A stretch of DNA of 36,167 nucleotides, taken from contig QHWJ01000372.1 in NCBI GenBank assembly GCA_003222535.1, positions 1 through 36,167 on the forward strand, read 5' to 3'. The notes beneath the pieces were generated by a model. The model had not been told where the DNA came from, did no database searches, and was given only the letters and a program-made list of their open reading frames with translations. This DNA is from Acidobacteriota bacterium. Lineage in GTDB: Bacteria > Acidobacteriota > Vicinamibacteria > Vicinamibacterales > CAVVIG01. A program made the translations under genes and the position numbers. Positions 3,940-36,167 of the stretch are shown here, in pieces. How positions within the stretch are numbered: position 1 is the first letter of the stretch; each line of letters starts with the position of its first letter.

Positions 3940-4103
3940 GATGCTCCTCGCTCGGCTGAAGCCTTCGCGCTCCATCGGTTCAGGCGGCTCGGCTGAGGAG
4001 CCTGTGAACAAATCACGACGCAGAAACCGCGGAACCCGCAAAGAAAAATGCCCTTGAGTTTTTCTGCGTATTCTGCGAGTTCTGCGTTTAACGTCGTATT
4101 TCT
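3940..4103. repeat. repeat-filled gap between kinase and ADOP genes
   Basis: This 164-bp gap has no gene. It contains GGCTGAAGCC (3954-3963), part of the GAGCGCGAAGGCTTCAGCC family in reverse orientation. It also holds an imperfect inverted tract from about 4018 to 4088 built from CGCAGAAA and TTTCTGCG words with a Phe/Lys-type AAA/TTT core. A second GAAGCCTTCGCGCTCC copy overlaps the kinase 3' end at about 4114-4131. Confidence 0.7.
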
Positions 4104-9258: not shown

Positions 9259-9324
9259 GTGGCCTCCGAATAGGAGCTCGAATCAGGGATGATACACCCA
9301 GCCGAGCACCAGACATCGTGTAGG

Positions 9325-9367
9325 GCGGGCCTTTCAGGCCCGCTGAGGCGACCCTGAAAGGGTCGCC
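9325..9367. repeat. pair of TTTCA/TGAAA-core palindromes
   Basis: Two adjacent hairpins in the divergent gap 9259-9452: arms GCGGGCC/GGCCCGC around TTTCA (9325-9343), and arms GGCGACCC/GGGTCGCC around TGAAA (9347-9367). Both are bracketed by GTAGGGC and its complement GCCCTAC. The second hairpin word recurs inside the PhzF gene at 35260-35337. The rest of the gap is A/T-poor, with TATCAT at 9439-9444 just before the molybdenum hydroxylase start. Confidence 0.8.
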
Positions 9368-9452
9368 CTACGACAAACACCTCTAATGACGCCGCGCTAA
9401 AGTTGACGCGCTGCGTCGGGGGCCGGCTCCGGCTGCGCTATCATGACGTGGG

Positions 9453-12326
9453 ATGCCGAGCGTCACATTCAACTTGAATGGACAGATCACAGCGGCCTCG
9501 TACGAGCCCGGGATGCACTTCCTCGACGTGTTGCGCGAAGAGTGCGGCGTGGTGTCGGCGAAAGACGGATGCGCTCCGGAAGGCACCTGCGGCTGCTGCC
9601 TCGTCCTGATCGATGGGCACCCGGCGCTGGCCTGCTTGCGCAAACCGGAACAGATGGCCGGCCATAACGTCGTCACCGTCGAGGGACTTGCCGACGACAC
9701 GCGCCGCATATTGGGGGAAGCGTTTGTGCTCGAAGGGGGTGTGCAATGCGGGTTCTGCATCCCCGGGATCGTCATTCGCGCCGCCTCGCTGATGCGGCGG
9801 GGGGTGACCAGCGATCGCCGGGCGGTCGCAAAGGCGCTCGACGGCCATCTGTGCCGCTGCACCGGTTACGGACGGATCATCGACGCCATTCAGACGGCAG
9901 GCGACGCCTGCAGGAATGGCGGACGCCTTCCGCGCAGCGAGCCGCGACGGCATCTGTTCTTTGGTGAAGAGTTCGGGCTGAGTCGCAATCCTGCCTTCGT
10001 CAAGGGTAACGGCGCGAACAATACGGTCCGCCTGAAGGCGGACGCCACGTTGTCCGACGCTCCATTAGTGTCCGGCTTCAGCCGGACCAAGGGCAACGGC
10101 AACGGGATCGGAACGTGTACTCCGAGGCTTGGCGGGCTGGAGCAGTCCTTGGGCGAGCGGCCCTTCGTCGGCGACATGTTCGTTCCCGGGATGCTCCACG
10201 GGGCGGTCGTGCTCAGCAAACATCCGCGGGCGAGAGTGTTGGCGATTCGCACCTCCGCCGCGGCGGCGATGCCAGGCGTCGTGCGGGTGTTCACGGCGGC
10301 TGATGTTCCGGGCGGACGTGGTACTGGGCTCAACGTACCCGATCTGCCGGTGTTCGTCGCTGTCGGCGAAACGACCTGCTGCGTCGGAGACTTTCTCGCG
10401 ATGGCCGTCGCGGATACGGCGTTTCACGCGCGACAGGCGACCGGAAAAATCGATGTGGACTACGAGGTGCTCGAGCCGGTCACGGATCCCGTTGCTGCCC
10501 TCGCGCCAGGCGCGCCGCAAGTCCATTCGGGCGACACGCTATACCCCGCTCCGAACCTCGTCGAGACCACAGCCTTTTCCCGCGGCAACGTGGATGCCGC
10601 ATTGGCCGCATCGGCGCATGTCATCGAGGAGACGTTCGTCACGCAGCCGGTCGAGCCGGCGTTTCTCGAGCCGGAAGCGTGCCTGGCGGTTCCTCAGGGG
10701 AATGGCATCAAGGTACACACGCAAAGCCAGGGGTCGGTCTTCGACCACCTTCAGATCGCCAGAGTACTGAACCTGCCACCCGGGGATGTGGAAATCGTGC
10801 TCGCGGCCAGCGGCGGCGCCTTCGGCGCGAAGGAAGAGTTGTCGATTCAGGCGCAGACCGCAGTGGCGGCGCTCCTGCTGGGCCGTCCGGTGAAAACCGT
10901 GCTGACGCGCGCGCAATCCACGCAGCATCACGTCAAGCGGCATCCGATGACGCTGAAGTACACCGTCGGCGCCGACGCCGGCGGGCATCTGTTGGCGGTG
11001 CGCGCCCGGATTCTCGGAGATGCGGGTGGCTACGCCGGCACGAGCGGCAAATGCCTGCTGCGCGCCGCGTGCCATTCGTGCGGGCCGTACCGAGTCCCGA
11101 ATGTGGATGTCGAATCGAAGGCCGTCTACACCAACAATCCCACGAGCGGAGCCATGCGCGGCTTCGGCAGCAACCAGGCGCAGTTCGCCATGGAAGGCGT
11201 CATGGACCGCCTGGCGGAGAAAGTGGGCGTGGATGGGTGGGACATCCGTGAACGGAACATCCTCAATCCCGGCGACGCCTTCGGCACGGGCCAGATCATG
11301 AGGGAGAGCGTCCGCGGCATGAGGGCGTCGCTCGAAGCCGTGAAGAAGGTGTACAAGACCGCGAAATTCAAAGGCATCGGCTGCGGCATCAAGAGCACCG
11401 GGCTTGGAAACGGCACGATCGAGGGCGGGCACATCGTCATTCGCGTCGTGGAAGGCGGCCCGACTTCGCGCTCCCGCCCTCGGTCGGGCGGCGCCGAAGC
11501 GTTCGGCGGAGGCGCCCGCGTCGAGATTCTCAACGGTTACACGGAAATGGGGCAGGGCGTCTACACGGCGACCATGCAGGCTGTCTGTGAAGAAACGCGA
11601 CTGCCGGCGGACATCATGACCGTTCGCTGGGACAGGGAGCTCGGCAACAGGTGCGGCGAGACGTGGGCGTCGCGCGCCACGACGCTGAGCTGCGCGGCGG
11701 CGCAGGAGGCGGCGCGGAAACTGGCCGCCGATCTCGACGAGAGCGTCCGGCTGAAGCCGGACACCACGTACGAGGACGCGCTCGGGCAACTCGTGGGTCG
11801 CGAGTACGCCGGGGAGTACGTGTGTAATTTCACGACCAGGCCCGGGACTCCTGAAGCCGTCACCAATCCGACCACCCACTTGACGTTCAGCTACTCCACG
11901 CAGGTGGTCATCCTTGGGGACGATGGCCGGCTCGAGCGCGTGGTGGCGGCTCACGACGTCGGCCGCGCCATCAACCCGAGGCTGTGCGCCGAACAGATGG
12001 AGGGTGGCGTGCACATGGGGCTGGGCTACGCGCTCTCCGAGACCTTCACGTCCACGGATGGCACGCCGGACTCATTGTCGCTGCGCGATCTCGGCATCGT
12101 CAGGGCGAAGCACATGCCGAAGGTCGATGTCATCCTGATCGAAGTTCCCGATGAAGTCGGGGGCTATGGTGCCAAGGGCGTCGGCGAAATCGGGTGTGTC
12201 GCAACGGCCGGCGCGGTCGCCGGCGCCCTGCATTCCCATGACGGAGTCCGCCGCTTCCGGCTGCCGATGGACGATTCGGCGGCGGCAGCGACATCGATTC
12301 CGAAATCGCGACACGCCGGTTCCTAG
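9453..12326 (+). CDS. fused [2Fe-2S]-molybdopterin hydroxylase (selenium-dependent xanthine dehydrogenase-like)
   Basis: A 957-residue xanthine oxidase-family enzyme joining the iron-sulfur and molybdopterin subunits. Plant-type [2Fe-2S] cysteines are C40, C46, C49 and C61; the second cluster has C99, C102, C134 and C136 (HLCRCTGYGR). The molybdopterin part starts near residue 215 and shows SGGAFGAKEE, GAMRGFGSNQAQFAMEG, NGYTEMGQGV and GYGAKGVGEIG, the last with the usual catalytic Glu. The fused layout and GFGSNQAQFA region match what I recall of the selenium-dependent xanthine dehydrogenase group. Likely role: hydroxylation of a purine or other N-heterocycle. No FAD subunit is nearby, so the electron acceptor is unclear. 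Three repeat-derived insertions lie in frame (10026-10087, 11459-11512, 11745-11762). No Shine-Dalgarno sequence is visible; TATCAT 8 nt before the ATG hints at a leaderless message. Confidence 0.9.
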   Translation: MPSVTFNLNGQITAASYEPGMHFLDVLREECGVVSAKDGCAPEGTCGCCLVLIDGHPALACLRKPEQMAGHNVVTVEGLADDTRRILGEAFVLEGGVQCGFCIPGIVIRAASLMRRGVTSDRRAVAKALDGHLCRCTGYGRIIDAIQTAGDACRNGGRLPRSEPRRHLFFGEEFGLSRNPAFVKGNGANNTVRLKADATLSDAPLVSGFSRTKGNGNGIGTCTPRLGGLEQSLGERPFVGDMFVPGMLHGAVVLSKHPRARVLAIRTSAAAAMPGVVRVFTAADVPGGRGTGLNVPDLPVFVAVGETTCCVGDFLAMAVADTAFHARQATGKIDVDYEVLEPVTDPVAALAPGAPQVHSGDTLYPAPNLVETTAFSRGNVDAALAASAHVIEETFVTQPVEPAFLEPEACLAVPQGNGIKVHTQSQGSVFDHLQIARVLNLPPGDVEIVLAASGGAFGAKEELSIQAQTAVAALLLGRPVKTVLTRAQSTQHHVKRHPMTLKYTVGADAGGHLLAVRARILGDAGGYAGTSGKCLLRAACHSCGPYRVPNVDVESKAVYTNNPTSGAMRGFGSNQAQFAMEGVMDRLAEKVGVDGWDIRERNILNPGDAFGTGQIMRESVRGMRASLEAVKKVYKTAKFKGIGCGIKSTGLGNGTIEGGHIVIRVVEGGPTSRSRPRSGGAEAFGGGARVEILNGYTEMGQGVYTATMQAVCEETRLPADIMTVRWDRELGNRCGETWASRATTLSCAAAQEAARKLAADLDESVRLKPDTTYEDALGQLVGREYAGEYVCNFTTRPGTPEAVTNPTTHLTFSYSTQVVILGDDGRLERVVAAHDVGRAINPRLCAEQMEGGVHMGLGYALSETFTSTDGTPDSLSLRDLGIVRAKHMPKVDVILIEVPDEVGGYGAKGVGEIGCVATAGAVAGALHSHDGVRRFRLPMDDSAAAATSIPKSRHAGS
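10026..10087. repeat. inverted pair of TGAA/TTCA palindromes inside a gene
   Basis: GTCCGCCTGAAGGCGGAC (10026-10043) and GTCCGGCTTCAGCCGGAC (10070-10087) lie in opposite orientation and encode a VRLKADAT and VSGFSRT linker. They sit between the iron-sulfur and molybdopterin parts of the hydroxylase, without breaking the frame. Confidence 0.88.
11459..11512. repeat. in-frame repeat-like insertion in the molybdenum hydroxylase
   Basis: A segment encoding about PTSRSRPRSGGAEAFGGG separates the VEGG and ARVEILNGYTEMGQG strands, which are normally joined by a short turn in this family. It holds an inverted repeat CCGCCC/GGGCGG (11474-11491) and a GCCGAAGCGTTCGGC palindrome. Confidence 0.6.
11745..11762. 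repeat. in-frame GTCCGGCTGAAGCCGGAC palindrome
   Basis: A perfect palindrome with arms GTCCGGC/GCCGGAC around TGAA, followed by ACACCACGT. It encodes VRLKPDTT in the hydroxylase. It is the same element as the inner copies at 10026-10087 (ACGCCACGT follows that copy). Confidence 0.88.
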
Positions 12327-12503
12327 GGACGGTTTGAAAACCGTCGGCTACGGATAAAATGCCACCACGAAAACACGAAAACCGACGAAGAGCACGAAGA
12401 AGATCAGTTCTTCTTCTCGATTCTTCGAGAGCTTCGCGTCTTCGTGGTCCCGGCGGCTCTTCGACGTGCGGATCGGAGGTAGAGCATCGAGAGGAGGAAG
12501 CAC
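12327..12503. repeat. gap with palindrome and CACGAAAACACG-type tract
   Basis: Right after the hydroxylase stop codon TAG comes GACGGTTTGAAAACCGTC (12328-12345, arms GACGGTT/AACCGTC, core TGAA). From 12362 to about 12450 there is a tract of CACGAAAACACGAAAAC and TTCTTCGAGAG words. No gene is visible. The gap ends with GAGGAGG at 12491-12497, the ribosome-binding site of the next gene. Confidence 0.75.
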
Positions 12504-15867: not shown

Positions 15868-16893
15868 ATGAGAGCCATGGTCCTGCGCGCACCCGGGGAT
15901 CTGGTCCTCGATGACGTGGCTCGGCCACGTCGGGACGCCAGCCAGGTGCAGGTCCGCGTGACACACAGCGGCATCTGCGGCACCGATTTCAAGATTTTCA
16001 GCGGTGCGATTCCGGTCAGCTATCCGCGAATCATGGGTCATGAAATGTTCGGGGAGGTCGTCGACGCCGGCGACGCCGATCGGTTGCGCCCCGGCGACCG
16101 GGTCATCATCGACCCCGAGCTTTACTGCGGCGCGTGCTTCCATTGCCGGATCGGCCAGACACATCTGTGCCCGAACGGCATGCTGGTTGGCCGCGACACG
16201 AACGGCGGCTTTGCCGAATACCTCAACGCTCCGCCGAGCCACGTCTTCCACCTGCCCGATTCGATCGACAGCCGGACCGCGCCGATGATTCAGGTCCTGA
16301 CGACCTGTCTCCATGCGCAGCGGCAGGTCAGCATTTTCCCGGGTGAATCGGTCGTCGTCTTCGGCCTCGGCGTGACGGGGCAGTTGCACGTGCAGCTCGC
16401 GAAAGCGCGGGGCGCCAGTCCGGTTATCGGCGTCACGCGCAGCGCGGCGAAGCGCGCGCTGGCGGAAACGCTCGGCGCGGACATCACGTTGCCCGGCGGT
16501 GAAGGCGCCATCGACAAGGTGCGCGAAGCCACCGGCGGCCGGGGCGCCGATGCGGTGATCGAGACCACCGGCATTCTCCCGTCAGTGGCCGCTTCGGTGA
16601 ACATGGCTCGAGCCGGCGGCCGGGTGTTGCTGTTCGGGATCATCACGGCGCAAGAGGGGGCGTTGCCCTTTTACGACCTGTACTTCAAGGAGCTTTCCCT
16701 CATCAGCGCCCGCGTCGCCAAGAGCGAAGACTATCCGAGCTCCATCGCGCTCGTGCAGCGTGGAACCGTGCGGCTGGAGCCGCTGGTCAGCGACGTCAGG
16801 CCACTCGAGGAGTTGAAGGCGGCGATTGGCATGCTGGGCTCGGACAGCGCCACGCGAATGAAGATCATCATGGAGCACAACAAGGTCGGGTAG
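15868..16893 (+). CDS. zinc-dependent MDR alcohol/polyol dehydrogenase
   Basis: A 341-residue medium-chain dehydrogenase. Catalytic zinc ligands are the Cys in SGICGTDF and the His/Glu in MGHEMFGE. The structural zinc lobe is CGACFHCRIGQTHLC. The nucleotide site is VVFGLGVTGQLHVQLAKARGA. The threonine/sorbitol dehydrogenase branch is the nearest in pattern; the substrate is unknown. ATG 15868 and 15877 are both possible. The stop TAG lies in GTCGGGTAGG, a word of the downstream repeat family, so the repeat abuts or supplies the stop codon. With the 2-hydroxyacid dehydrogenase gene it forms a likely two-gene oxidoreductase pair in the catabolic island. Confidence 0.9.
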   Translation: MRAMVLRAPGDLVLDDVARPRRDASQVQVRVTHSGICGTDFKIFSGAIPVSYPRIMGHEMFGEVVDAGDADRLRPGDRVIIDPELYCGACFHCRIGQTHLCPNGMLVGRDTNGGFAEYLNAPPSHVFHLPDSIDSRTAPMIQVLTTCLHAQRQVSIFPGESVVVFGLGVTGQLHVQLAKARGASPVIGVTRSAAKRALAETLGADITLPGGEGAIDKVREATGGRGADAVIETTGILPSVAASVNMARAGGRVLLFGIITAQEGALPFYDLYFKELSLISARVAKSEDYPSSIALVQRGTVRLEPLVSDVRPLEELKAAIGMLGSDSATRMKIIMEHNKVG

Positions 16894-17292
16894 GGCAGGC
16901 AGGTCGCGTGGGATGGCAATTTGGAATTGTGAATCTGGAATTTGGAATGCGTGTTCGAGTTCCAGTTGTAGCGCGAAGGCTTCAGCCGAGCGGCAGGTTC
17001 GAGTGGCTCGGGTAGGTCGCGTAGGTCGGGTGGGTTCCGGCGCCGGAGCGCGAAGGCTTCAGCCGAAGCGTCAGGTTCGCGTGGGTCGGGTAAGCCGCGT
17101 GGGTCGCGTAGGTCGGGTGGGGCAGGTAGATCGGGCAGGTCGGGTGGGTTCCGGCACCGGAGCGCGAAGGCTTCAGCCGAGCGAGGCGTCGACGGGATCG
17201 CAATTTGGAATTGTGAATCAGGAATTTGGAATGCGTGTTCGAGTTCCGATTGGGGACGGCCTCAAGACCGTCCCGACGAAGGAGAGAGAAAT
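16894..17292. repeat. composite repeat block before the GlcG-like gene
   Basis: A 399-bp gap without a gene. In order it has an AATTTGGAATTGTGAATC word (16919), GGCTTCAGCC palindromes at 16978, 17055 and 17169 each in GAGCGCGAAGGCTTCAGCCGA context, and GTAGGTCGGGTGGG minisatellite between them. A second AATTTGGAATTGTGAATC word follows at about 17201, then GGGACGG/CCGTCCC arms at 17253-17274. Positions 17160-17245 are nearly identical to 22121-22206. The block ends in AAGGAGAG, the ribosome-binding site of the next gene. Confidence 0.85.
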
Positions 17293-18897: not shown

Positions 18898-19143
18898 TTC
18901 GGGACGGTCTGAAGACCGTCCCTTACCGATAGGTCGGGCAGGCCTGGTGGGTCGGGCAGCTCTGACGCCGGAGCGCGAAGGCTTCAGCCGAGCGTCAGGT
19001 CGGGTGGGTCAGGTAGGTCGGGTAGGTCTGGTGGGTCGGGTAGGTCTGACGCCGGAGCGCGAAGGCTTCAGCCGAGCGTCACGTCGCGTCGGTCAGCTGG
19101 GTCAGGTGGGTTGGGTGGGTCGGGTTGGTCTGGTAGGTCCGGC
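18898..19143. repeat. repeat block between the two Liv permease genes
   Basis: It begins 3 nt after the livH stop with a perfect palindrome, arms GGGACGGTC/GACCGTCCC around TGAA (18901-18922). GGTCGGGTGGGTC minisatellite follows with two GAGCGCGAAGGCTTCAGCCGA copies (cores 18980-18989 and 19064-19073), each opened by CTGACGCCG. The block runs right up to the livM start and must be transcribed if the importer genes form one operon. Confidence 0.88.
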
Positions 19144-21323: not shown

Positions 21324-22081
21324 TGGAAACGTCTTCCGCCTGCCTCGTGCTCGAAGGCGTCTCCCGGCACTTCGGCGGCCTCAAGGCCGTCGACAACGTG
21401 AACCTGACGCTTCAGCCTGGCGAGCGTCATGCGCTCATCGGGCCGAACGGCGCGGGCAAAACGACGCTGTTCAATGTCATCAGCGGCGAGCTTCGGGCGG
21501 ATGCGGGAACAATCACCCTGAACGGGGCGGACGTCACCCGTCTGGCGGCGCATCAGCGGGCGGCGCGAGGTATCGCCAGAACATTTCAGATCACGAAGCT
21601 CTTCCCGAACCTCACCGTCATCGAGAACATGCTGGTCGCCTGTGAAGCCCTGGACCGGCGAAGGTTCACGATGCATCGCCCGCTCTCGTCGTGCGCCGAT
21701 CTGGTCGAACGCGCGACGAACCTGCTCGACGAATATCGCCTGTCCCCGTTCCGGCGGGAGCTCGCGCGCAATCTGTCCTACGGCGATCAACGAAAACTCG
21801 AAGTGGCGCTGTCCATGGCCGGCCGGCCGCGCGTGCTGCTGTTGGATGAACCGATGGCCGGCCTCTCGTCCGGCGAGCGCGACGTCATGCAGGCGCTCCT
21901 CCGGCAACTGGATCCGTCGATCGCCGTGCTGCTCATCGAGCACGACATCGACGTCGCGTTCGGCTTCGCGGAGAGAATCACCGTCCTGTATCAGGGTCGG
22001 GTCCTGACGGAGGGACCGAAAGAGATGGTCAGCGCGAACCGCAGCGTGCAGGAGAGCTATCTGGGACTCCTGGTCGAGTGA
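21323..22081 (+). CDS. livG: ABC importer ATPase (LivG-like)
   Basis: A 252-residue ATPase. Walker A is GPNGAGKTT, the Q-loop region IARTFQITKLFPNLTV, the signature NLSYGDQRKLEVAL and Walker B VLLLDEPMAGLS, followed by the switch His in IEHDID. The FGGLKAVDNVNL opening and the GIARTFQ step are LivG features. ATG 21323 overlaps the TAA of the binding-protein gene. It energises the LivHM pore together with the LivF-like ATPase, from which it is separated by a 173-bp repeat block. Confidence 0.93.
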   Translation: METSSACLVLEGVSRHFGGLKAVDNVNLTLQPGERHALIGPNGAGKTTLFNVISGELRADAGTITLNGADVTRLAAHQRAARGIARTFQITKLFPNLTVIENMLVACEALDRRRFTMHRPLSSCADLVERATNLLDEYRLSPFRRELARNLSYGDQRKLEVALSMAGRPRVLLLDEPMAGLSSGERDVMQALLRQLDPSIAVLLIEHDIDVAFGFAERITVLYQGRVLTEGPKEMVSANRSVQESYLGLLVE

Positions 22082-22254
22082 GGTCGCGTAGGTCTGGCAG
22101 GTCGGGTGGGTCGACACCGGGAGCGCGAAGGCTTCAGCCGAGCGAGGCGTCGACGGAATCGCAATTTGGAATTGTGAATCTGGAATTTGGAATGCGTGTT
22201 CGAGTTTCAGTTGTAGCGCGTTGAGAGTTGAGAGTTGAGACTTGAAGAGTTGCA
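22082..22254. repeat. repeat block between livG and livF
   Basis: GTAGGTCTGGCAGGTCGGG words, then a copy of the 86-bp cassette (22121-22206; differs at 2-3 positions from 17160-17245), then GAGAGTTGAGAGTTGAGAC heptads (22218-22240). The last heptads, GACTTGAAGAGTTGCA, also provide the only GAAGAG that could serve as livF ribosome-binding site. Confidence 0.88.
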
Positions 22255-23013
22255 ATGCTGAACGTCCTCGACCTCCACACCTATTACGGCGACAGCCACG
22301 TGCTGCAGGGCGTGACCATGCACGTGGACTCGGGAAGGGTGACGGCGGTCCTCGGCCGGAACGGCGTGGGGAAGACGACGCTGTGCCGATCGCTCGTCGG
22401 GCTGACGCCCGCCCGTGCCGGGCGGATCGTGTTCAACGATACCGAGATCACGCGTCTGCCGCCCCATCAAATCTGCGGGTTGCGCATCAGCCTGGTTCCG
22501 CAGGGCCGTCGAATTTTCCGGTCGCTTACCGTGGAGGAGCATCTGGCGATTGCGGGGCGGACGCGTGGGTCCCTCGCCGGCGTGTCCGAGAAACGGGAAC
22601 ACCGTCCTGGCTGGGACGTTCGGAAGGTGTACGACGTGTTCCCGCGCCTGTCGGAACGGAGGGGTCATCGTGGGGATGAGCTGAGCGGCGGGGAGCAGCA
22701 GATGCTGGCGATTGCGCGTGCGCTCGTCGCCAATCCCGTCCTGCTCGTGATGGACGAGCCCACCGAAGGCCTGGCGCCGATGCTTGTCGCGGAGGTGGGG
22801 AAGCTGATTCGCCGGCTGAAGGACGAAGGCACGTCGATTCTGCTGGTCGAACAGAACGCCTCATTTGCAGTCAAGACCGCCGATTACGTGCACGTGATGA
22901 GCAAGGGAAGGATTGTCCATTCGTCGGAGCCGGCGGCGCTCTGGGCGAACGGGGACATCCGGACGCAGTTCCTCGGCGTGCCCCGCGTTGATCCTCCCGT
23001 CGCGCGCGACTAG
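22255..23013 (+). CDS. livF: ABC importer ATPase (LivF-like)
   Basis: A 252-residue ATPase. Walker A is GRNGVGKTT, Q-loop ISLVPQGRRIFRSLTVEEHL, signature LSGGEQQMLAIARAL and Walker B LLVMDEPTEGLAP, followed by LVEQNASFAV. These are LivF-type features; PQGRRIF is the LivF form of the Q-loop. A short extra segment (SLAGVSEKREHRPGWD, about residues 102-118) is longer than in common LivF proteins. It completes the importer HMGF plus binding protein. The 3' end carries a candidate promoter for the following amidohydrolase gene. Confidence 0.93.
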   Translation: MLNVLDLHTYYGDSHVLQGVTMHVDSGRVTAVLGRNGVGKTTLCRSLVGLTPARAGRIVFNDTEITRLPPHQICGLRISLVPQGRRIFRSLTVEEHLAIAGRTRGSLAGVSEKREHRPGWDVRKVYDVFPRLSERRGHRGDELSGGEQQMLAIARALVANPVLLVMDEPTEGLAPMLVAEVGKLIRRLKDEGTSILLVEQNASFAVKTADYVHVMSKGRIVHSSEPAALWANGDIRTQFLGVPRVDPPVARD

Positions 23014-24427: not shown

Positions 24428-25659
24428 AGTCGAGATTCGCTGCCTGGTCGCTCGGCGCCGCTTGTCTGGCGATCTGTGGATGCGGCAAGCCGCCGGCAGG
24501 GGGTGCGAAGGATGCCTACTCTGGATGGACGCCAGCCGTCCAACCGGTATCGTCTCCGGCGAGCGGCACCACCACGGCACCTCAGCTGACGAATCGCGGC
24601 GACCGGGCCATCCTGAGCTGGCTCGAGACGGCGGATGCGCGCACCATTTTGAAATTCGCCGAGCGGACTCCATCTGGATGGTCCGAGCCCCGCGTCGTGG
24701 CGTCGGGATCGGACTTCGTCACGAATGCCGCGGACGTGCCCTCCGTTCGCGCGCTGGCTGACGGCACGCTCGCCGCGCACTGGAACCGGCAGTATGGCGA
24801 CGACCCCGAGGCGTACGCGTTGCTGCTGTCGTGGTCGAAGGATGGCGGGAGCACCTGGTCGCAGCCGGCGACGCCGCATCACGACTCGACCAAAACACAG
24901 CACGGTTTCGGTTCGTTGTTCCAGGTGCCGGGTTCCGGGCTCGGAGTGATATGGCTGGACGGACGGGCGACGGACCCGGGCGCGCCGGATGGCGCGAACG
25001 GAAGCATGGGTCTGTGGGCGGCGGTCTACGGCGCGGATGGCCGGGAGGTCAGCGAGGCGCCGATCGATACGCGCGTCTGTGAGTGCTGCCAGACGTCGGT
25101 CGCCGAGACCGCGGAAGGCGTGATCGCCGCGTACCGCGACCGAAGCGCCGGGGAAGTGCGGGACATCTACGTGACGCGTCTGGTCGACGGCGGCTGGAGC
25201 GCACCCGCCATGGTGCACAACGACGGCTGGAAGATCACTGGATGTCCTGTCAACGGCCCGGCGGTGGATGCCAGAGGTCGTCATGTGGCTGTTGCCTGGT
25301 TCACGGCCGGCGCCAGCGACGGCGAAGCGTTCATCGCCTTCTCGGACGATGCGGGCCGCACGTTCTCGCGACCCATTCGTGTGGACGAGGGGGCGTGCCG
25401 TGGACACCTCGATGTCGAGCTGCTGGCCGACGGTTCCGCGGCGGTTTCATGGACCGAGTCGACCGAAGGGCATTCCCAGGTGAAAGTGCGCAGGGTCGAA
25501 CAGAATGGCGCGCGCTCGCCGGCCGCCAGCGTCGCTCGCGTATCGGGTACAGAGTATCCGAGGCTCGCGCACGGCCAGGGTGAGCTGCTGTTCACCTGGT
25601 CCGAGATCGAAAACGGTCACTCGCGCGTCCGCACCGCCAGAGCTTCTCTCCCAAAGTAG
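24424..25659 (+). CDS. BNR/sialidase-like beta-propeller lipoprotein
   Basis: A 411-residue protein with an N-terminal hydrophobic stretch ending in CLAICGCGK, a probable lipoprotein signal with Cys19 or Cys21 as the lipid site. The rest is a predicted beta-propeller with Asp-box-like turns WSKDGGSTWSQP and FSDDAGRTFSRP and repeated WL/AW strands. The centre holds a Cys-rich VCECCQTS. Sialidase catalytic residues are not evident, so it is likely a binding or structural propeller. The start overlaps the amidohydrolase stop (ATGA). The TAG stop (25657-25659) is part of GTAGGGC, the edge of a repeat hairpin. Confidence 0.82.
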   Translation: MKSRFAAWSLGAACLAICGCGKPPAGGAKDAYSGWTPAVQPVSSPASGTTTAPQLTNRGDRAILSWLETADARTILKFAERTPSGWSEPRVVASGSDFVTNAADVPSVRALADGTLAAHWNRQYGDDPEAYALLLSWSKDGGSTWSQPATPHHDSTKTQHGFGSLFQVPGSGLGVIWLDGRATDPGAPDGANGSMGLWAAVYGADGREVSEAPIDTRVCECCQTSVAETAEGVIAAYRDRSAGEVRDIYVTRLVDGGWSAPAMVHNDGWKITGCPVNGPAVDARGRHVAVAWFTAGASDGEAFIAFSDDAGRTFSRPIRVDEGACRGHLDVELLADGSAAVSWTESTEGHSQVKVRRVEQNGARSPAASVARVSGTEYPRLAHGQGELLFTWSEIENGHSRVRTARASLPK

Positions 25660-25679
25660 GGCACCGCTTGAGCGGTGCC
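25660..25679. repeat. GGCACCGC-TTGA-GCGGTGCC palindrome
   Basis: Perfect 8-bp arms around TTGA, right after the propeller lipoprotein stop and before the cytochrome gene. It could serve as a terminator but has no U-run. The 47 bp that follow contain TATATT (25688-25693), a weak -10 candidate for the cytochrome gene. Confidence 0.7.
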
Positions 25680-25726: not shown

Positions 25727-26854
25727 ATGAGACCGGGATCGCGAGCGATCCTTTGTGCATCGGCAACAACCGTCGTATGGCTCGTGTGCGCGGCCCTGGC
25801 AGGCGGCCAGGCCGCGTCCGCGGAGAAACCGTTGATGGCGGAGAACGTCTTCAAGAACGTCCAGGCGCTCAAGGGCATTCCCGCGGACGAATTCATGGGG
25901 ACGATGAGCGCGTTTTCAGCCGCGCTTGGCGAGTCCTGCGAGACGTGTCACGACGGGTCGGGTGGCTGGGCCACCTATGCCCTCGATACCATTCCGAAAA
26001 AGCGGACGGCGCGACGAATGGTGGCGATGATGGCCGCGATCAATCAGGCGAACTTCGGAGGACGGCAGGTCGTGACCTGCTTCACGTGCCATCGGGGATC
26101 CGATCGTCCCCGGGTCACGCCGAGTCTGGCCGACGTCTACGGAGAGGCGCCTCCGGAAGGGCCGGACGAAGTTGTCCGGCCCTCGCCCGGCGCGCCTTCC
26201 GCCGAACAGGTTCTCGACAAGTATGTTCAGGCGATCGGCGGGACGTCGAAGCTGGCCAGCCTCACCAGTTTCGTCGCCAGGGGAAACAGCGGCGGATACG
26301 GGCCGGAGGGGGACAAGCGTCCCGTCGAAATCTTTGCCAAAGCTCCAGGTCAGCGAACCACGGTCATCCATACGCTCGATGGCGACAGCATCAGGACCTT
26401 CGACGGCCGCGCCGGTTGGATCGCGGCGCCACACAGACCGATCCCCGTGCTCGGGCTGACCGGCGGTGAACTGGACGGCGCCAGGCTGGACGCGGAGCTG
26501 TCCTTTCCAGCGCAGATCAAACAGGCGTTCGGCGGATGGCGCGCCGGCGCCGTGACGACGATCAATGATCGCCCGGCCCAGGTTCTTCAGGGGACCAGTC
26601 CCGGCGGAACTCTCGCCTCGCTCTATTTCGATCGCGAGTCGGGGCTGCTGGTGCGGTTGGTGCGTTTTGCCCCATCGAAGGTCGGCCGCCTGCCCACGCA
26701 GATCGACTATGCGGACTACCGGGAGGTCGCCGGCGTGAAGCTGCCGTTTCGCTGGACCGTCACCTGGCTGTCCGGCGTGGACACTTTCGAGTTGAGCGAG
26801 GTGCGGCCCAATGTCCCGATCGACGCGGCGAGGTTCGCGAAGCCTTCACCTTGA
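25727..26854 (+). CDS. dihaem-type cytochrome c (reaction-centre cytochrome family) with C-terminal LolA-like domain
   Basis: A 375-residue exported protein. A signal segment (VVWLVCAALAGGQAASA) is followed by two haem motifs, CETCHDG (residues 71-75) and CFTCHRG (118-122). Their spacing and KRTARRMVAMMAAINQANF between them match the photosynthetic-reaction-centre cytochrome c subunit family as found in non-phototrophic Acidobacteriota. From about residue 150 a second domain begins, VLDKYVQAIGG, and continues with strands ending in YREVAGVKLPFRW and VRPNVPID, a lipoprotein-carrier or LolA-like beta domain. Likely role: periplasmic electron transfer, perhaps for the molybdenum hydroxylase upstream, which lacks a FAD partner. 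ATG 25727 has GAGGGGA upstream. Confidence 0.85.
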   Translation: MRPGSRAILCASATTVVWLVCAALAGGQAASAEKPLMAENVFKNVQALKGIPADEFMGTMSAFSAALGESCETCHDGSGGWATYALDTIPKKRTARRMVAMMAAINQANFGGRQVVTCFTCHRGSDRPRVTPSLADVYGEAPPEGPDEVVRPSPGAPSAEQVLDKYVQAIGGTSKLASLTSFVARGNSGGYGPEGDKRPVEIFAKAPGQRTTVIHTLDGDSIRTFDGRAGWIAAPHRPIPVLGLTGGELDGARLDAELSFPAQIKQAFGGWRAGAVTTINDRPAQVLQGTSPGGTLASLYFDRESGLLVRLVRFAPSKVGRLPTQIDYADYREVAGVKLPFRWTVTWLSGVDTFELSEVRPNVPIDAARFAKPSP

Positions 26855-26945
26855 CAACTCTCAAGTTTCAACTCTCAAGTCTCAACGCTCAGTCTGAAAG
26901 CTGAAGTCTCAGAGTTGAGCCTTGAGAGTTGAGAGTTGAGAGTTG
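26855..26945. terminator. long heptad hairpin between convergent stop codons
   Basis: The 91-bp gap is filled exactly by an imperfect inverted repeat with arms of about 44 nt. CAACTCTCAAGTTTCAACTC at the left pairs with GAGAGTTGAGAGTTGAGAGT at the right, with a loop around TGAAAGCTGAAG. It starts after the cytochrome TGA and ends at the oxidoreductase TAA complement, so it may be a bidirectional terminator built of GAGTTGA heptads. Confidence 0.55.
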
Positions 26946-27914
26946 TTACCCGATCGTGAGCAGTATCTTGCCCGCCGTTTTTCGGCTCTCGAGCGCGCGG
27001 TGCGCTTCGGCGGCGGCGCCCAGCGGGAATGTCGAGTCGATGCGCAGCTTCAGCGCGCCCGAGGCCACGGCGTTCAACACGTCACCCGCGCGCCACAGCA
27101 ATTCGTCGCGTGTCAGGACGTAGTGGGCCAGGCTCGGTCTCGTCAGAAAGAGCGATCCCTTCGCGAGCACGGCGGCATCGACCGGCGCCACCTGCCCGCT
27201 CGACATGCCGAAGAGCGCGAGCATTCCTCTGGGACGCAGACTCTCCAGACTCTTGGCGAACGTCGTCTTTCCGACCGAGTCGTACACCACATCGACGCCG
27301 CGGCCGCCGGTCAACTGCCTGACCTGGGCCGCAAAGTCCTGCTCGGTATAAATGATGGCCGTGTCCACGCCGTGGTCGCGTGCAATCCGCGCCTTCTCCG
27401 CGGTGGACACGGTGCCGAACACCCGGGCGCCGCGCATCCGCGCCATTTGGACGACGAGTCCGCCGGCGCCGCCAGCCGCCGCATGAACGAGACACGCGTC
27501 GCCCGATTTCAACGGAAAGGTGGAGTGCGTGAGGTAGTGGGCGGTCATGCCCTGGAGCATTGCCGCTGCAGCCGCCTGAAAATCAATGCCGGGCGGAAGC
27601 TTCACGAGCTTGTCTGCTGGAACGACGGCGTATTCGGCGTAGGACCCGCGCACCATGACGTACGCCACGCGGTCACCCGGTACGACGTCGACGACATCCG
27701 TGCCCACGGCTTCGACCGTCCCGGCGCCCTCGCTGCCGAGCATGATCGGCCGGTCCACCTTGTACGCGCCGGAGCGGTGGTAGACGTCGATGAAGTTCAC
27801 GCCGCTCACCGCGAGCCGAACGAGCGCCTGGCCGGGTCCAGGCGCGGGGGTTGGAACGTCGACCAGCTCCATCCTGTCGGGGTCTCCGGGCTCTCTGGCT
27901 TGTATGACTTTCAT
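26946..27914 (-). CDS. quinone oxidoreductase-like MDR protein
   Basis: A 322-residue zinc-free MDR reductase. Features are GVNFIDVYHRSGAY, LGSEGAGTVEAVG, the nucleotide loop VHAAAGGAGGLVVQMAR and the late segment RPSLAHYV that QOR-type enzymes share. Zinc ligands are absent, as in quinone reductases. It uses NADPH to reduce quinones or enones. ATG 27914 is the family start; the frame upstream has no support. It lies 78 bp after the ABC exporter gene on the same strand. Confidence 0.92.
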   Translation of the reverse strand: MKVIQAREPGDPDRMELVDVPTPAPGPGQALVRLAVSGVNFIDVYHRSGAYKVDRPIMLGSEGAGTVEAVGTDVVDVVPGDRVAYVMVRGSYAEYAVVPADKLVKLPPGIDFQAAAAAMLQGMTAHYLTHSTFPLKSGDACLVHAAAGGAGGLVVQMARMRGARVFGTVSTAEKARIARDHGVDTAIIYTEQDFAAQVRQLTGGRGVDVVYDSVGKTTFAKSLESLRPRGMLALFGMSSGQVAPVDAAVLAKGSLFLTRPSLAHYVLTRDELLWRAGDVLNAVASGALKLRIDSTFPLGAAAEAHRALESRKTAGKILLTIG

Positions 27915-30401: not shown

Positions 30402-30705
30402 ACGGGGCAGAATAGCACTTCCACGCTCGGAGCCGCGCCGCGTTGTCGACATCGACGTCGCGCTTCGTGACAAACCGTGTCGGGCGAGTTCGGCCTCCGA
30501 CCGACGTAGGGCGCAGCTTCAGCCTCGACGGCACGTAGGGCGCGGCTTCAGCCGTGCCAGCACGAAGGCTGGATTCAGCCTTTCAAGTCCTCCGCAATGG
30601 CGGCGAACTGTTCCAGGGCGGCTTCAAGATCGGCTGTGACTTCGTGTCTTCGTGTTTTCGTGGTTGCATTTGCTGTTGTTCTTCACCGCCGCGAGTTGAA
30701 GAGGA
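30402..30705. repeat. repeat gap with a possible coding relic
   Basis: A 304-bp gap. It holds GTAGGGCGC words with a CGGCTTCAGCCG palindrome (30543-30554; wider arms GGCAC/GTGCC at 30530-30558), then AAGGCTGGATTCAGCCTT (30565-30582). From 30575 to 30644 on the minus strand a start-less frame reads VTADLEAALEQFAAIAEDLK-like, ending in TGA, which could be a truncated gene end. A TTCGTGTCTTCGTGTTTTCG tract follows (30645-30666). No intact gene is seen. Confidence 0.75.
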
Positions 30706-35189: not shown

Positions 35190-36167
35190 ATGGCTGACAT
35201 GAACCGGCGCGAGTTCGGCCGTTCGGGAATCGCGGGGTTGGCGGGGATCGCGTTCGGCCGCGACCCTGAAAGGTTCGGCGACGCTGAGAGATCCGGCGAC
35301 CCTGAAAGATCCGGCGACCCTGAAAGGGTCGCCCTACATGCGCAATCGATCGACGGCCGGGCGTATCGCTACGTCCACCTCGACGTGTTCACCGATCGCC
35401 GGCTGCAGGGCAATCAGCTGTTTGTGTTCGTCCAGCCGGGTGGCCTCGACACCGATGCGATGCAGACGATGACGCGCGAGTCGAACCTCTCCGAGAATAC
35501 GTTCGTGTTTCCGCCCGAGCAGCCGGGCACCGACCACCGCGTCCGCATCTTCACGCGAACCGCCGAGACCCCTTTTGCGGGCCATCCGACGATCGGCACC
35601 GCCTTCGCCCTCGCGCATACCGGCGTCCTCAAGCCGGGCCTCTCGCATACCACGTTCGGCCTCGGCGTCGGGCCGACCAATGTCGATCTGGAATGGAAGG
35701 ACGGCCGGCTCGCCTTTGCGTGGATGACGCAGCTGAAACCCACGTTCGGCAAAGCGATCGCCGACAGCCGTGCGTTGGCGGCCGCGATCGGCGTCGAGGC
35801 GCTCGATCCCCGCGCGCCGGCGCAGGAAGTCAACTGCGGCTCGAACTTCTTCATCGTCCCGCTCACGACGCGCAAGGCCGTGGACGCGGCGGTGATCGAT
35901 CGCGCGAAGCTCGATGCGGTGTTCAGCGCCGCCGGCGTTCAGCGGCGCGGGATATACATCTTCAGCACCGAACGCGGGCAGGACGATGCAACGGCGTACA
36001 GCCGGCTGCTGGGCACCGGGGGCACTGAAGATCCGGGGACCGGCTCGGCCGCTGGACCAGCCGGCTGCTTCATGGCGAGGCACGGCTATGTGCCGCCGGA
36101 GCGCGCGGGCGCCATCGTGATTCTCCAGGGGGTGCCGGTGCGGCGTCCGAGCCGGATCCACGTCAGG
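35190..36167 (+). CDS. PhzF-family isomerase, exported-like N-terminus (cut by window end)
   Basis: At least 326 residues; the frame is open at the window end. After RBS GAGGAGAG and ATG 35190 comes MADMNRREFGRSGIAGLAGIAFG, a twin-arginine-like signal. Then there are about 25 residues of DPERSGDPER-type repeat (residues 24-48), then the PhzF fold: YRYVHLDVFTDRRLQGNQL, the catalytic Glu102 in NLSENTFVF, RIFTRTAETPFAGHPTIGTA, and DPGTGSAAGPAG near the C-terminus. The family isomerises or epimerises small acids; the substrate here is unknown. The repeat insertion sits exactly at the expected signal/mature junction and lacks an AxA site, so export is doubtful. Confidence 0.87.
   Translation, partial: MADMNRREFGRSGIAGLAGIAFGRDPERFGDAERSGDPERSGDPERVALHAQSIDGRAYRYVHLDVFTDRRLQGNQLFVFVQPGGLDTDAMQTMTRESNLSENTFVFPPEQPGTDHRVRIFTRTAETPFAGHPTIGTAFALAHTGVLKPGLSHTTFGLGVGPTNVDLEWKDGRLAFAWMTQLKPTFGKAIADSRALAAAIGVEALDPRAPAQEVNCGSNFFIVPLTTRKAVDAAVIDRAKLDAVFSAAGVQRRGIYIFSTERGQDDATAYSRLLGTGGTEDPGTGSAAGPAGCFMARHGYVPPERAGAIVILQGVPVRRPSRIHVR
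35260..35337. repeat. in-frame GCGACCCTGAAAGATCCG 18-bp array in the PhzF gene
   Basis: Four units of 18 bp period (starts 35260, 35278, 35296, 35314), the last ending as the palindrome GCGACCC-TGAAA-GGGTCGC and GCCCTAC. The unit matches the hairpin at 9347-9367. The period is a multiple of three, so the frame is kept. Confidence 0.9.

Follow-up and report, generated by a model that had tools for sequence, protein, structure and literature searches.

The palindromes scattered through the window, by which we mean the whole analysed stretch of 36,167 nucleotides from an Acidobacteriota bacterium, belong to the GTAG superfamily of REP elements. REPs are short repeats that do not move on their own and are believed to be spread by REP-associated tyrosine transposases (RAYTs), which are Y1, HUH-type single-strand transposases related to IS200/IS605. 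Our analysis makes it likely that the elements are served by a RAYT that reads their head, their loop and their paired stem, and that the covariation of the two arms stems from selection on mobile master copies.

Head, loop and stem of the class 1 elements

The main kind of element (class 1) follows one grammar, with a head GT(A/G)G, an 8-nt stem and a loop TT(C/T/G)A or TTTCA. The long palindromes named in the earlier note were found where it had placed them or a few bases off; the element at 35313..35337, which lies inside a predicted ORF, was missing from its list. The class 1 elements and REP-like hairpins of the window are:

9320..9344, plus strand: class 1 REP, head GTAG, stem GGCGGGCC/GGCCCGCT, loop TTTCA (palindrome 9325-9343)
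9347..9371, minus strand: class 1 REP of family C, GTAG at 9368-9371, GGCGACCC/GGGTCGCC, TTTCA (palindrome 9347-9367); forms a head-out inverted pair with 9320..9344
10025..10048, minus strand: class 1 REP of family A, GTCCGCC type, head GTGG at 10045-10048 (palindrome 10026-10043)
10065..10088, plus strand: class 1 REP of family A, GTCCGGC type, head decayed to TTAG (palindrome 10070-10087); inverted partner of 10025..10048
11744..11767, minus strand: class 1 REP of family A, head GTGG at 11764-11767 (palindrome 11745-11762)
12328..12351, minus strand: REP-like hairpin, GACGGTT-TTCA-AACCGTC when read on the head strand (palindrome 12328-12345), with GTAG two bases further out
17253..17277, minus strand: REP-like hairpin, stem GGACGGTC/GGCCGTCC, loop TTGA, head GTCG
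18901..18925, minus strand: REP-like hairpin, GGACGGTC/GACCGTCC, TTCA, decayed head TAAG (palindrome 18901-18922)
25656..25679, plus strand: class 1 REP of family B, GTAG-GGCACCGC-TTGA-GCGGTGCC (palindrome 25660-25679)
30535..30558, plus strand: class 1 REP, variant of family B, GTAG-GGCGCGGC-TTCA-GCCGTGCC, with one G.T pair
35313..35337, minus strand: class 1 REP of family C, GTAG, GGCGACCC-TTTCA-GGGTCGCC (palindrome 35313-35333)

The arms of the window fall into a few families and do not vary freely. The palindromes are real and lie far above chance expectation: GGCTTCAGCC/GGCTGAAGCC occurred ten times in the window, while 100 shuffles gave a mean of 0.16 and a maximum of 1. In 41 sequences, namely the window and 40 stretches from its genome (0.83 Mb, N runs excluded), perfect arms of at least 6 were found at 40 of 5,896 TGAA/TTCA sites versus 543 of 823,418 sites with other loops; 3.9 were expected (Poisson P ~1e-26). 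TAAA/TTTA loops were enriched too (11 of 464 with perfect arms). For the window alone, the values were 5 of 293 versus 22 of ~35,850, obtained with a version of the scan that paired N runs. The hairpin at 25660 has the loop TTGA, which fits the same TTNA rule. Short hairpins with other loops are also numerous and could be taken to mean that the palindromes arise by chance where GC content is high, but this is refuted by the tenfold excess of the TGAA/TTCA loop, by the head and its distance, which are common to the copies, and by a genome-wide search in which the degenerate pattern GTCCGNNTGAANNCGGAC had 140 matches and its reverse none. Chance is, thus, an extremely improbable source. One stem had 99 exact copies in the genome of the window, and 82 class 1 elements were found in a 1.23-Mb sample of it.

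In a search that prescribed no loop, GTRG heads in 1.23 Mb were followed by 98 hairpins in which 7 or all 8 pairs formed, and 71 of these had TTNA loops (TTCA 43, TTTA 27, TTGA 1); with four control head sets the TTNA share was 1/29, 8/49, 1/44 and 1/16. The palindromes are of the size of REPs (20-40 bp), and DNA folding energies of two class 1 elements were -9.2 and -10.5 kcal/mol. The 82 elements had been preselected to have 6 or more of 8 pairs, so that only the searches with free pairs bear on pairing.

Forty-eight of the 82 class 1 elements are intergenic, 11 lie at gene edges and 23 inside predicted genes, in a genome sample with a coding share of 85% as judged by our own codon-usage script, not a standard gene finder. 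Class 1 elements are predominantly extragenic, as is characteristic of REPs; this is weaker for family A, with 37 of 84 copies inside predicted genes. The family A set was obtained from 117 raw matches by removing 33 that lacked a tail and differed at 2 or 3 positions; the reversed consensus matched as well (4 times at 2 mismatches, 22 times at 3), and part of the 84 copies are probably chance matches. One family A match, in a DNA ligase gene (locus L061), brought no extra residues compared with Pfam. The 60 genome stretches came from long contigs already holding a family A match and, therefore, copy densities are biased upward. Neighbours less than 150 bp apart formed 22 pairs among the 82 elements, 10 inverted and 12 direct, in a scan that overlooks decayed partners, such as the inverted pair 10025/10069 of the window, and whose direct count is inflated by tandem arrays.

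Host gene, transposase loci and a second class of hairpin

Three REPs lie in frame in one gene of the window:

9453..12326, plus strand: host gene for fused 2Fe-2S and molybdopterin-binding subunits (aldehyde oxidase / xanthine dehydrogenase type)

The REP at 10025..10048 is located in the linker joining the two protein halves and is translated VRLKAD, and that at 10065..10088 is translated SGFSR. The third (11744..11767) lies within an 11-residue insertion (VRLKPDTT...) that the three closest orthologues do not have. This copy was inserted into the host gene in frame, and orthologues have clean empty sites; such sites show insertion, not which enzyme did it. By description, this is like the Rickettsia palindromic elements, which are palindromic insertions within protein genes.

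A search for a REP-associated tyrosine transposase, as suggested in the earlier note, revealed an open gene in the genome (locus L035) flanked by two inverted REP copies. Its product matched the family NF047646 (REP-associated tyrosine transposase) with 101.7 bits at a cut-off of 80 and TnpArep (PDB 4er8) with an E-value of 2.5e-6. The open frame contains PDHVHLL and YIVANPVRAGL, which we take to be the HUH and tyrosine motifs. Class 1 grammar adjoined 4 of the 35 Y1 transposase loci examined, with differing stems (GTCCGGC/GTCCGAC, GTCCGCC, CGCACGAC/CGCAAGGC and GCCGGGTC/GGCGGGTC). These four transposases fall into one tree group of seven, with a support of 94/97 that is under the starred level of the tool; the remaining 31 loci, including three from the same group, had no adjoining class 1 grammar. 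The expected scaling of transposases with copy number was not found, as there was one Y1 match at 258 exact copies and 12 at 5 copies. A Y1 gene was commoner in genomes that hold 10 or more exact copies (22/25 versus 74/124), and three of these 25 genomes, whose assemblies are incomplete, had no Y1 match.

Eight GGC-TTCA-GCC sites had been counted as further copies. The site at 30544 indeed belongs to the main kind, but the other seven are a different, imperfect hairpin (class 2). Six of them fit the class 2 grammar exactly and the one at 17055 is decayed. They are, with the position given in the earlier note in brackets:

3949..3973, minus strand: class 2 hairpin GGAG-CGC-GAA-GGC-TTCA-GCC-GA-GCG (3954)
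16968..16992, plus strand: class 2 hairpin with a GTAG head (16978)
17045..17069, plus strand: class 2 hairpin, 3' side decayed (17055)
17159..17183, plus strand: class 2 hairpin (17169)
18970..18994, plus strand: class 2 hairpin (18980)
19054..19078, plus strand: class 2 hairpin (19064)
22120..22144, plus strand: class 2 hairpin (22130)

Among 68 class 2 heads, 47 were GGAG, 10 GTAG and 11 other. We had considered that class 2 might derive from class 1 REPs by inversion of one arm, but the outer CGC/GCG stem and the GA internal loop spoke against this. Compared with shuffles, the DNA folding energy was no better for one form (z 0.17) and modestly better for the other (z -1.96). Since no class 2 hairpin was found in the flanks (up to 1.5 kb) of the 35 Y1 loci, class 2 was not filed as REP.

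Paired and broken stems

The genome pattern searches found 140, 109, 105 and 127 places, of which 100 matches each were listed. In the relative G005, searched without constraint on four stem pairs, full pairing was seen in 60 of the 100 matches listed of 105, compared with a mean of 11 and a maximum of 21 in shuffled controls, and the fully paired copies among those listed had 12 different stems. The complementary variation of the arms is, therefore, genuine. It also persisted after identical copies were collapsed (of 50 distinct arm pairs, 12 matched completely at the four free positions, while shuffling gave a mean of 1.3 and at most 8), and the observation that arms vary yet stay complementary was thus borne out beyond shuffled controls. 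Among the same matches listed, pair 5 was C-G 30, A-T 26, G-C 25 and T-A 1 times, pair 6 was G-C 70, A-T 10, C-G 5 and T-A 1 times, and pair 7 was A-T 45, G-C 26, C-G 9 and T-A 5 times. In genome G149, searched with pair 2 free, this pair was C-G 77, T-A 18 and C.A 5 times (counted by eye, 100 listed of 127), a shift of the master. To look for joint arm changes at inherited sites, two species of one genus (G025 and G132) were compared; 60 stretches gave only 13 alignments of at least 200 bp, with a mean identity of 74%.

The coexistence of many paired stems in G005 would also be expected if template switching at quasi-palindromes or hairpin-primed synthesis rewrote one arm from the other without selection. 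In line with this, 9 of 15 one-pair steps are transversions via a mismatched intermediate, and next to the RAYT gene of G005 there is a tandem array of six 32-bp units that have nearly the same flanks but different inner arms. However, three odd units of this array are mismatched (one by G.T) and look chimeric, like recombination tracts. In the genome of the window, with two pairs free, 89 copies were of the two main types, 10 were broken and only 1 was compensated (counted by eye, 100 listed of 140), which argues against ongoing arm matching in settled copies. The family A sample (n=84) comprised 59 copies of the two main types, 14 with one broken pair, 1 compensated and 10 with two or more defects, some of them maybe chance matches; the compensated count is lowered because a compensated change amounted to two mismatches, at which the scan needed the tail to be kept. 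Self-correction of settled class 1 copies was, therefore, rejected. Moreover, a G.T was retained in pair 4 of 19 of the 82 class 1 elements. These are family-B-like and have multiplied, some in tandem arrays, showing that perfect pairing is not strictly required. Altogether, rewriting of the arms is an improbable origin of the covariation.

We consider it equally improbable that selection acts on the hairpins at the RNA level, as terminators, mRNA stabilisers or attenuators. Single-pair defects on the head strand in G005 were G.T 11 versus A.C 3 times (binomial P 0.057), class 1 elements in the genome of the window had 23 G.T versus 1 A.C, with 19 of the 23 in pair 4 of family-B-like stems, and intergenic class 2 copies usually precede a gene on the same strand (23/34). 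A single-stranded DNA substrate fits the tolerance of G.T equally well, though, and the single defects of family A were 3 G.T, 3 A.C and 8 others. Copies are present on both strands and, inside genes, in several reading frames, an Rfam search of the window gave no family at gathering score, and terminators do not call for an invariant head and loop next to a gene for a transposase. The earlier note had left open whether structure is selected or some process makes both arms match. Since pairing is conserved and a RAYT is flanked by the elements, the first alternative, with the structure selected as the target of a protein, is the better one, whereas the matching process is not supported for settled copies.

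Recognition, mobility and known relatives

For the arm variation no mechanism had been known to the earlier note, but alternative complementary stems are described in print (in the accounts of PMC3733652 and PMC2817692) and a recognition rule that would permit them has been measured for another RAYT. According to the account of Corneloup 2021 (PMC8266576), which covers E. coli, Stenotrophomonas and Marinomonas systems, the group 3 RAYT of Marinomonas Mb needs T12, T13 and A15 of the loop with position 14 free, and a swap of the whole stem had only a moderate effect on cleavage, whereas stem mismatches led to serious loss. By analogy, the RAYT studied here would recognise single-stranded DNA by its head, its loop and the pairing of its stem, and hardly by the letters of the stem. 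In copies that still multiply, these letters could drift within the set of paired sequences, and because a swapped stem would be tolerated, paired variants could multiply as new masters and fill the genome, while settled copies would decay and not be corrected. The covariation would then be a record of selection for mobility on master copies. A farther-reaching reading, which we regard as rather doubtful, is that the stem is an almost free code of which only head, TTNA loop and pairing are read, with a dozen interchangeable stems per genome, and that class 2 (same loops, conserved GA(A)/GA internal loop, mostly GGAG) is carried by the same machinery.

All main features have precedents in other bacteria. 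As described in PMC8266576, the REPtron Mb of Marinomonas sp. MWYL1 (group 3) has a perfect palindrome and a GTAG head like the elements here, and its rule of a T-T-N-A loop and a paired stem also holds here (71/98 loops), except for the elements with one G.T. Going by the description of GTAG-superfamily REPs by Di Nocera 2013 (PMC3733652), the likeness extends to the GTAG/GTGG head, a stem of mostly 6-9 bp, the short loop, subfamilies that differ by complementary replacements in the stem, G.T pairs, dimers and copies inside genes, including UvrD/REP helicase; unlike there, our scan gave slightly more direct than inverted neighbour pairs (12 versus 10). The same source equates RPE-4 and RPE-6 with intragenic repeats of R. 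conorii of the CGTC type. REPs of Stenotrophomonas and others are, in the accounts of Nunvar 2010 (PMC2817692) and Nunvar 2013 (PMC3686654), almost exclusively found between genes, unlike the 23 of 82 class 1 copies inside predicted genes. REPINs, as characterised by Bertels and Rainey 2011 (PMC3116915), share REP doublets and compensatory changes; inverted doublets made up 10 of the 22 neighbour pairs here, a count that lacks decayed partners.

In sum, complementary arm variation needs no new arm-copying process, and the puzzle it had posed is largely answered. The elements amount to a mutagenesis experiment done by nature on a recognition rule of RAYTs and provide an example of in-frame REP insertion with clean empty sites, and they extend the same head-and-loop rule to genomes of uncultured Acidobacteriota.

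Hairpin classes in the window and its genome

The palindromes listed in the earlier note, which had described a fixed TGAA/TTCA core between varying but complementary arms, were found in the sequence. In the window and 40 stretches of the same genome, 40 of 5,896 TGAA/TTCA sites had perfect arms of at least six bases, as against 3.9 expected from other loops; TAAA/TTTA cores were enriched as well. On the tag-carrying strand these elements (class 1) have the layout GT(A/G)G, 8 nt, loop, 8 nt. When sites were picked by loop and tag alone, ignoring the arms, at most one of the inner six pairs was unpaired in 71 of 263 sites, the corresponding counts at control distances being 6 of 137 and 5 of 155. 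Sites picked by tag and pairing alone had a TTNA loop in 71 of 98 cases (TTCA 43, TTTA 27, TTGA 1), as against 1/29, 8/49, 1/44 and 1/16 with other tags, and TTTCA was the most frequent five-base loop (17 of 33). Given this loop preference, the palindromes at 25660 (loop TTGA) and at 9325 and 9347 (loop TTTCA) share the pattern of the TTCA palindromes.

Seven of the short sites that had been grouped with the palindromes are a separate, imperfect hairpin type with a GA internal loop (class 2) and not members of the main class. Its grammar is G(G/T)AG-(C/G)GC-GA(A)-GGC or GCC-TTCA/TTTA/TTTCA-GCC or GGC-GA-GC(G/C), with loops common to class 1. The sampled stretches hold 68 such elements, which fold weakly; the head is GGAG in 47, GTAG in 10 and another in 11. 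The inner triplets were paired in 62 of 68 (shuffled 33, maximum 45) and the outer pairing was present in 60 (shuffled 46, maximum 54). Class 2 is not classed as REP, since none of its elements was found alongside 35 Y1 transposase loci. Class 2 hairpins are embedded in degenerate GGTCGGGTAGGTCG-like units in intergenic DNA (16890-17250, 18930-19130 and 22075-22110). Another intergenic repeat, GGAATTGTGAATC ... TTTGGAATGCGTGTTCGAGTT, has three copies (16920-16975, 17200-17250 and 22157-22222). At 26854-26946, between two predicted convergent genes, lies an inverted repeat whose 42-nt arms consist of CTCTCAAGT/GAGAGTTGAG-like units; similar units occur upstream of 22255 (22215-22255).

Stem families and arm covariation

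Class 1 elements of the window's genome were sorted by stem, and rarer families are present besides these:

Family A: stem GTCCGGC or GTCCGCC
Family B: stem GGCACCGC, plus forms with G.T in pair 4
Family C: stem GGCGACCC, loop TTTCA

The degenerate family A pattern with two free pairs gave 140 matches in the genome and 0 with the reversed control; among the 100 of 140 matches listed, 89 were of the two main types, 10 were broken and 1 was compensated, as counted by eye. The 84 family A copies of the sample comprised 41 GTCCGGC, 18 GTCCGCC and one other fully paired stem (GTCCGAC, ~110 bases from the match to a REP-associated tyrosine transposase, RAYT); 14 had one defect and 10 had two or more, some of the latter possibly being chance matches. 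Therefore, off-type copies that have settled and no longer multiply have mostly lost pairing. Exact GTCCGGCTGAAGCCGGAC is present in 45 of 149 genomes of the order Vicinamibacterales.

In the relative G005, elements have the form CGC....C-TTCA-G....GCG. Four free pairs gave 105 sites (reversed control: 9), and fixing head and loop alone gave 109 (reversed control: 16). Among the 100 of 105 sites listed, 60 were fully paired in the four free pairs, with a shuffled mean of 11 and a maximum of 21 in 2,000 shuffles. After collapse to 50 distinct arm pairs, 12 were fully paired compared to 1.3 after shuffling (maximum 8 in 5,000 shuffles), so that the covariation of the arms proposed in the earlier note exceeds the shuffled background in G005 even when identical arms are collapsed. 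All four Watson-Crick types were seen at each of pairs 5, 6 and 7; pair 4 was almost always A-T or G.T.

Single defects in G005 were 11 G.T, 3 A.C and 9 others, and mismatched class 1 pairs in the window's genome were 23 G.T, 1 A.C and 7 others. Pair 4 of family-B-like stems accounts for 19 of these 23 G.T mismatches, some in tandem arrays; family A alone had 3 G.T, 3 A.C and 8 others. This leaning to G.T on the tag strand weakly suggests that it is the tag strand that is read in folded form. Two stem families often have a tag-strand G.T at pair 4 (19/82 class 1 elements in the window's genome, 11/100 in G005), and in PMC8266576 the fourth position is also the one whose mutation reduced cleavage. 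Beside the G005 RAYT gene lies a tandem array (L034:1276-1455) of six 32-bp REP units that are nearly identical except in the hairpin. The arms are perfect (ACGA/TCGT) in three units and mismatched and chimeric-looking in the other three.

Copies inside genes

The 84 family A copies lie in predicted genes (37), between genes (44) or at edges (3). Intragenic copies are read as VRLKPD (16), SGFSR (9), PAEAG (6) or VRLQPD (6); the stop-containing frame is used by none, as an open frame demands. Within class 1, 23 of 82 elements are in genes. Besides the molybdopterin gene of the window there are 22 predicted host genes, and all 18 of these that were scanned had a Pfam match (E 0.001 or better). 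Two UvrD-type helicase genes (L065:10405-13917 and L069:3087-6140) carry three and four in-frame family A REPs, resembling the repair helicases described as REP hosts in other bacteria in PMC3733652; further hosts encode a CDC48-like ATPase, a helicase with Helicase_C_2, an AMP-binding enzyme and a class I tRNA synthetase.

9453-12326: molybdopterin enzyme gene, with an inverted REP pair in the linker between its halves and a third REP in an 11-residue insertion

The third REP is absent from the three closest orthologues (77-82% identity) and from four more distant ones. The linker of the three closest has no insertion in one, a single REP in another and a different insertion in the remaining one. 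In a comparison of the window with 17 records, including these three (18 rows in all; two further loci, one without the region and one distant, were left out), a REP-type insertion lay at an equivalent position, give or take a few codons, in five rows, another segment in three and nothing in ten. Since the best tree requires four changes and well-supported branches force at least two, the site was either hit repeatedly or copies were lost. The insertion in L235 has the stem GCCCGGC in place of GTCCGGC; among the 100 of 127 copies listed from its genome, 77 have the paired GCCCGGC stem, 18 have GTCCGGC and 5 are mixed. This distribution indicates that the master, the copy still multiplying, has changed rather than a single copy. 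In L232, the REP at the corresponding position contains an additional segment, partly palindromic, in place of the loop, as if a second element had inserted into the first. L229 is titled Acidimicrobiia, yet its gene groups with acidobacterial orthologues; it is possibly a mislabelled MAG. At 11402-11500, an imperfect 28-nt inverted repeat encodes ~20 extra residues of the enzyme; the orthologue L101 lacks them and L100 and L102 have different ones, so that this is an insertion of another kind at a single spot.

The transposase and published REP systems

The window's genome has one Y1_Tnp match, whose open frame exceeded the cut-off of 80 for NF047646 (REP-associated tyrosine transposase) with 101.7 bits and also matched TnpArep (PDB 4er8). 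Family A elements lie on both sides of this gene in opposite orientation. Of a larger number of Y1 matches in the order, the 35 that scored best were examined; class 1 elements adjoin four of these loci, with stems differing among the four. These transposases fall within one tree group of seven (support 94/97), the remaining three of which have no class 1 elements alongside; other examined loci have different hairpins, some long inverted repeats, or none. Y1_Tnp was found in 96 of 149 genomes, that is, in 22 of 25 with at least ten exact GTCCGGCTGAAGCCGGAC copies versus 74 of 124 others (Fisher P 0.006). In G016, another REP-like family (head GGGATC, loop TCCA) adjoins a Y1 gene (L038), with stems GCCGGGC, GCCACGC and GCCAGGC (twice) and 85 matches, a few of them chance; stems are again exchangeable and the loop fixed, but head and loop differ from class 1.

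A limited search of open-licence papers found none naming Vicinamibacter together with REPs or RAYTs, and for Acidobacteriota none on such elements beyond PMC3733652 and PMC12306157; the former places the transposases of five acidobacteria in one group (Di Nocera 2013), and the latter, the RepRanger paper, lists three Acidobacteriota genomes in a table. Published work describes RAYTs lying between a pair of inverted REPs, and modified REPs in which the palindrome is retained, "suggesting selection for complementary mutations" (Nunvar 2010, PMC2817692), as well as subfamilies with alternative complementary stem residues and G.T pairs, and intragenic REPs often in DNA repair genes (Di Nocera 2013, PMC3733652); Nunvar 2013 (PMC3686654) and Bertels and Rainey 2011 (PMC3116915) agree. 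According to Corneloup 2021 (PMC8266576), the Marinomonas Mb RAYT needs loop T12, T13 and A15 with any base at position 14; a mismatch in the stem impairs it seriously, and exchanging the entire stem for its complement has only a moderate effect. Fixed-core palindromes with variable arms had been observed correctly, and the puzzle over how the arms vary is largely answered, the kind of element being known in print. That the elements of the window are a REP/RAYT system, of a kind already known, is well supported.
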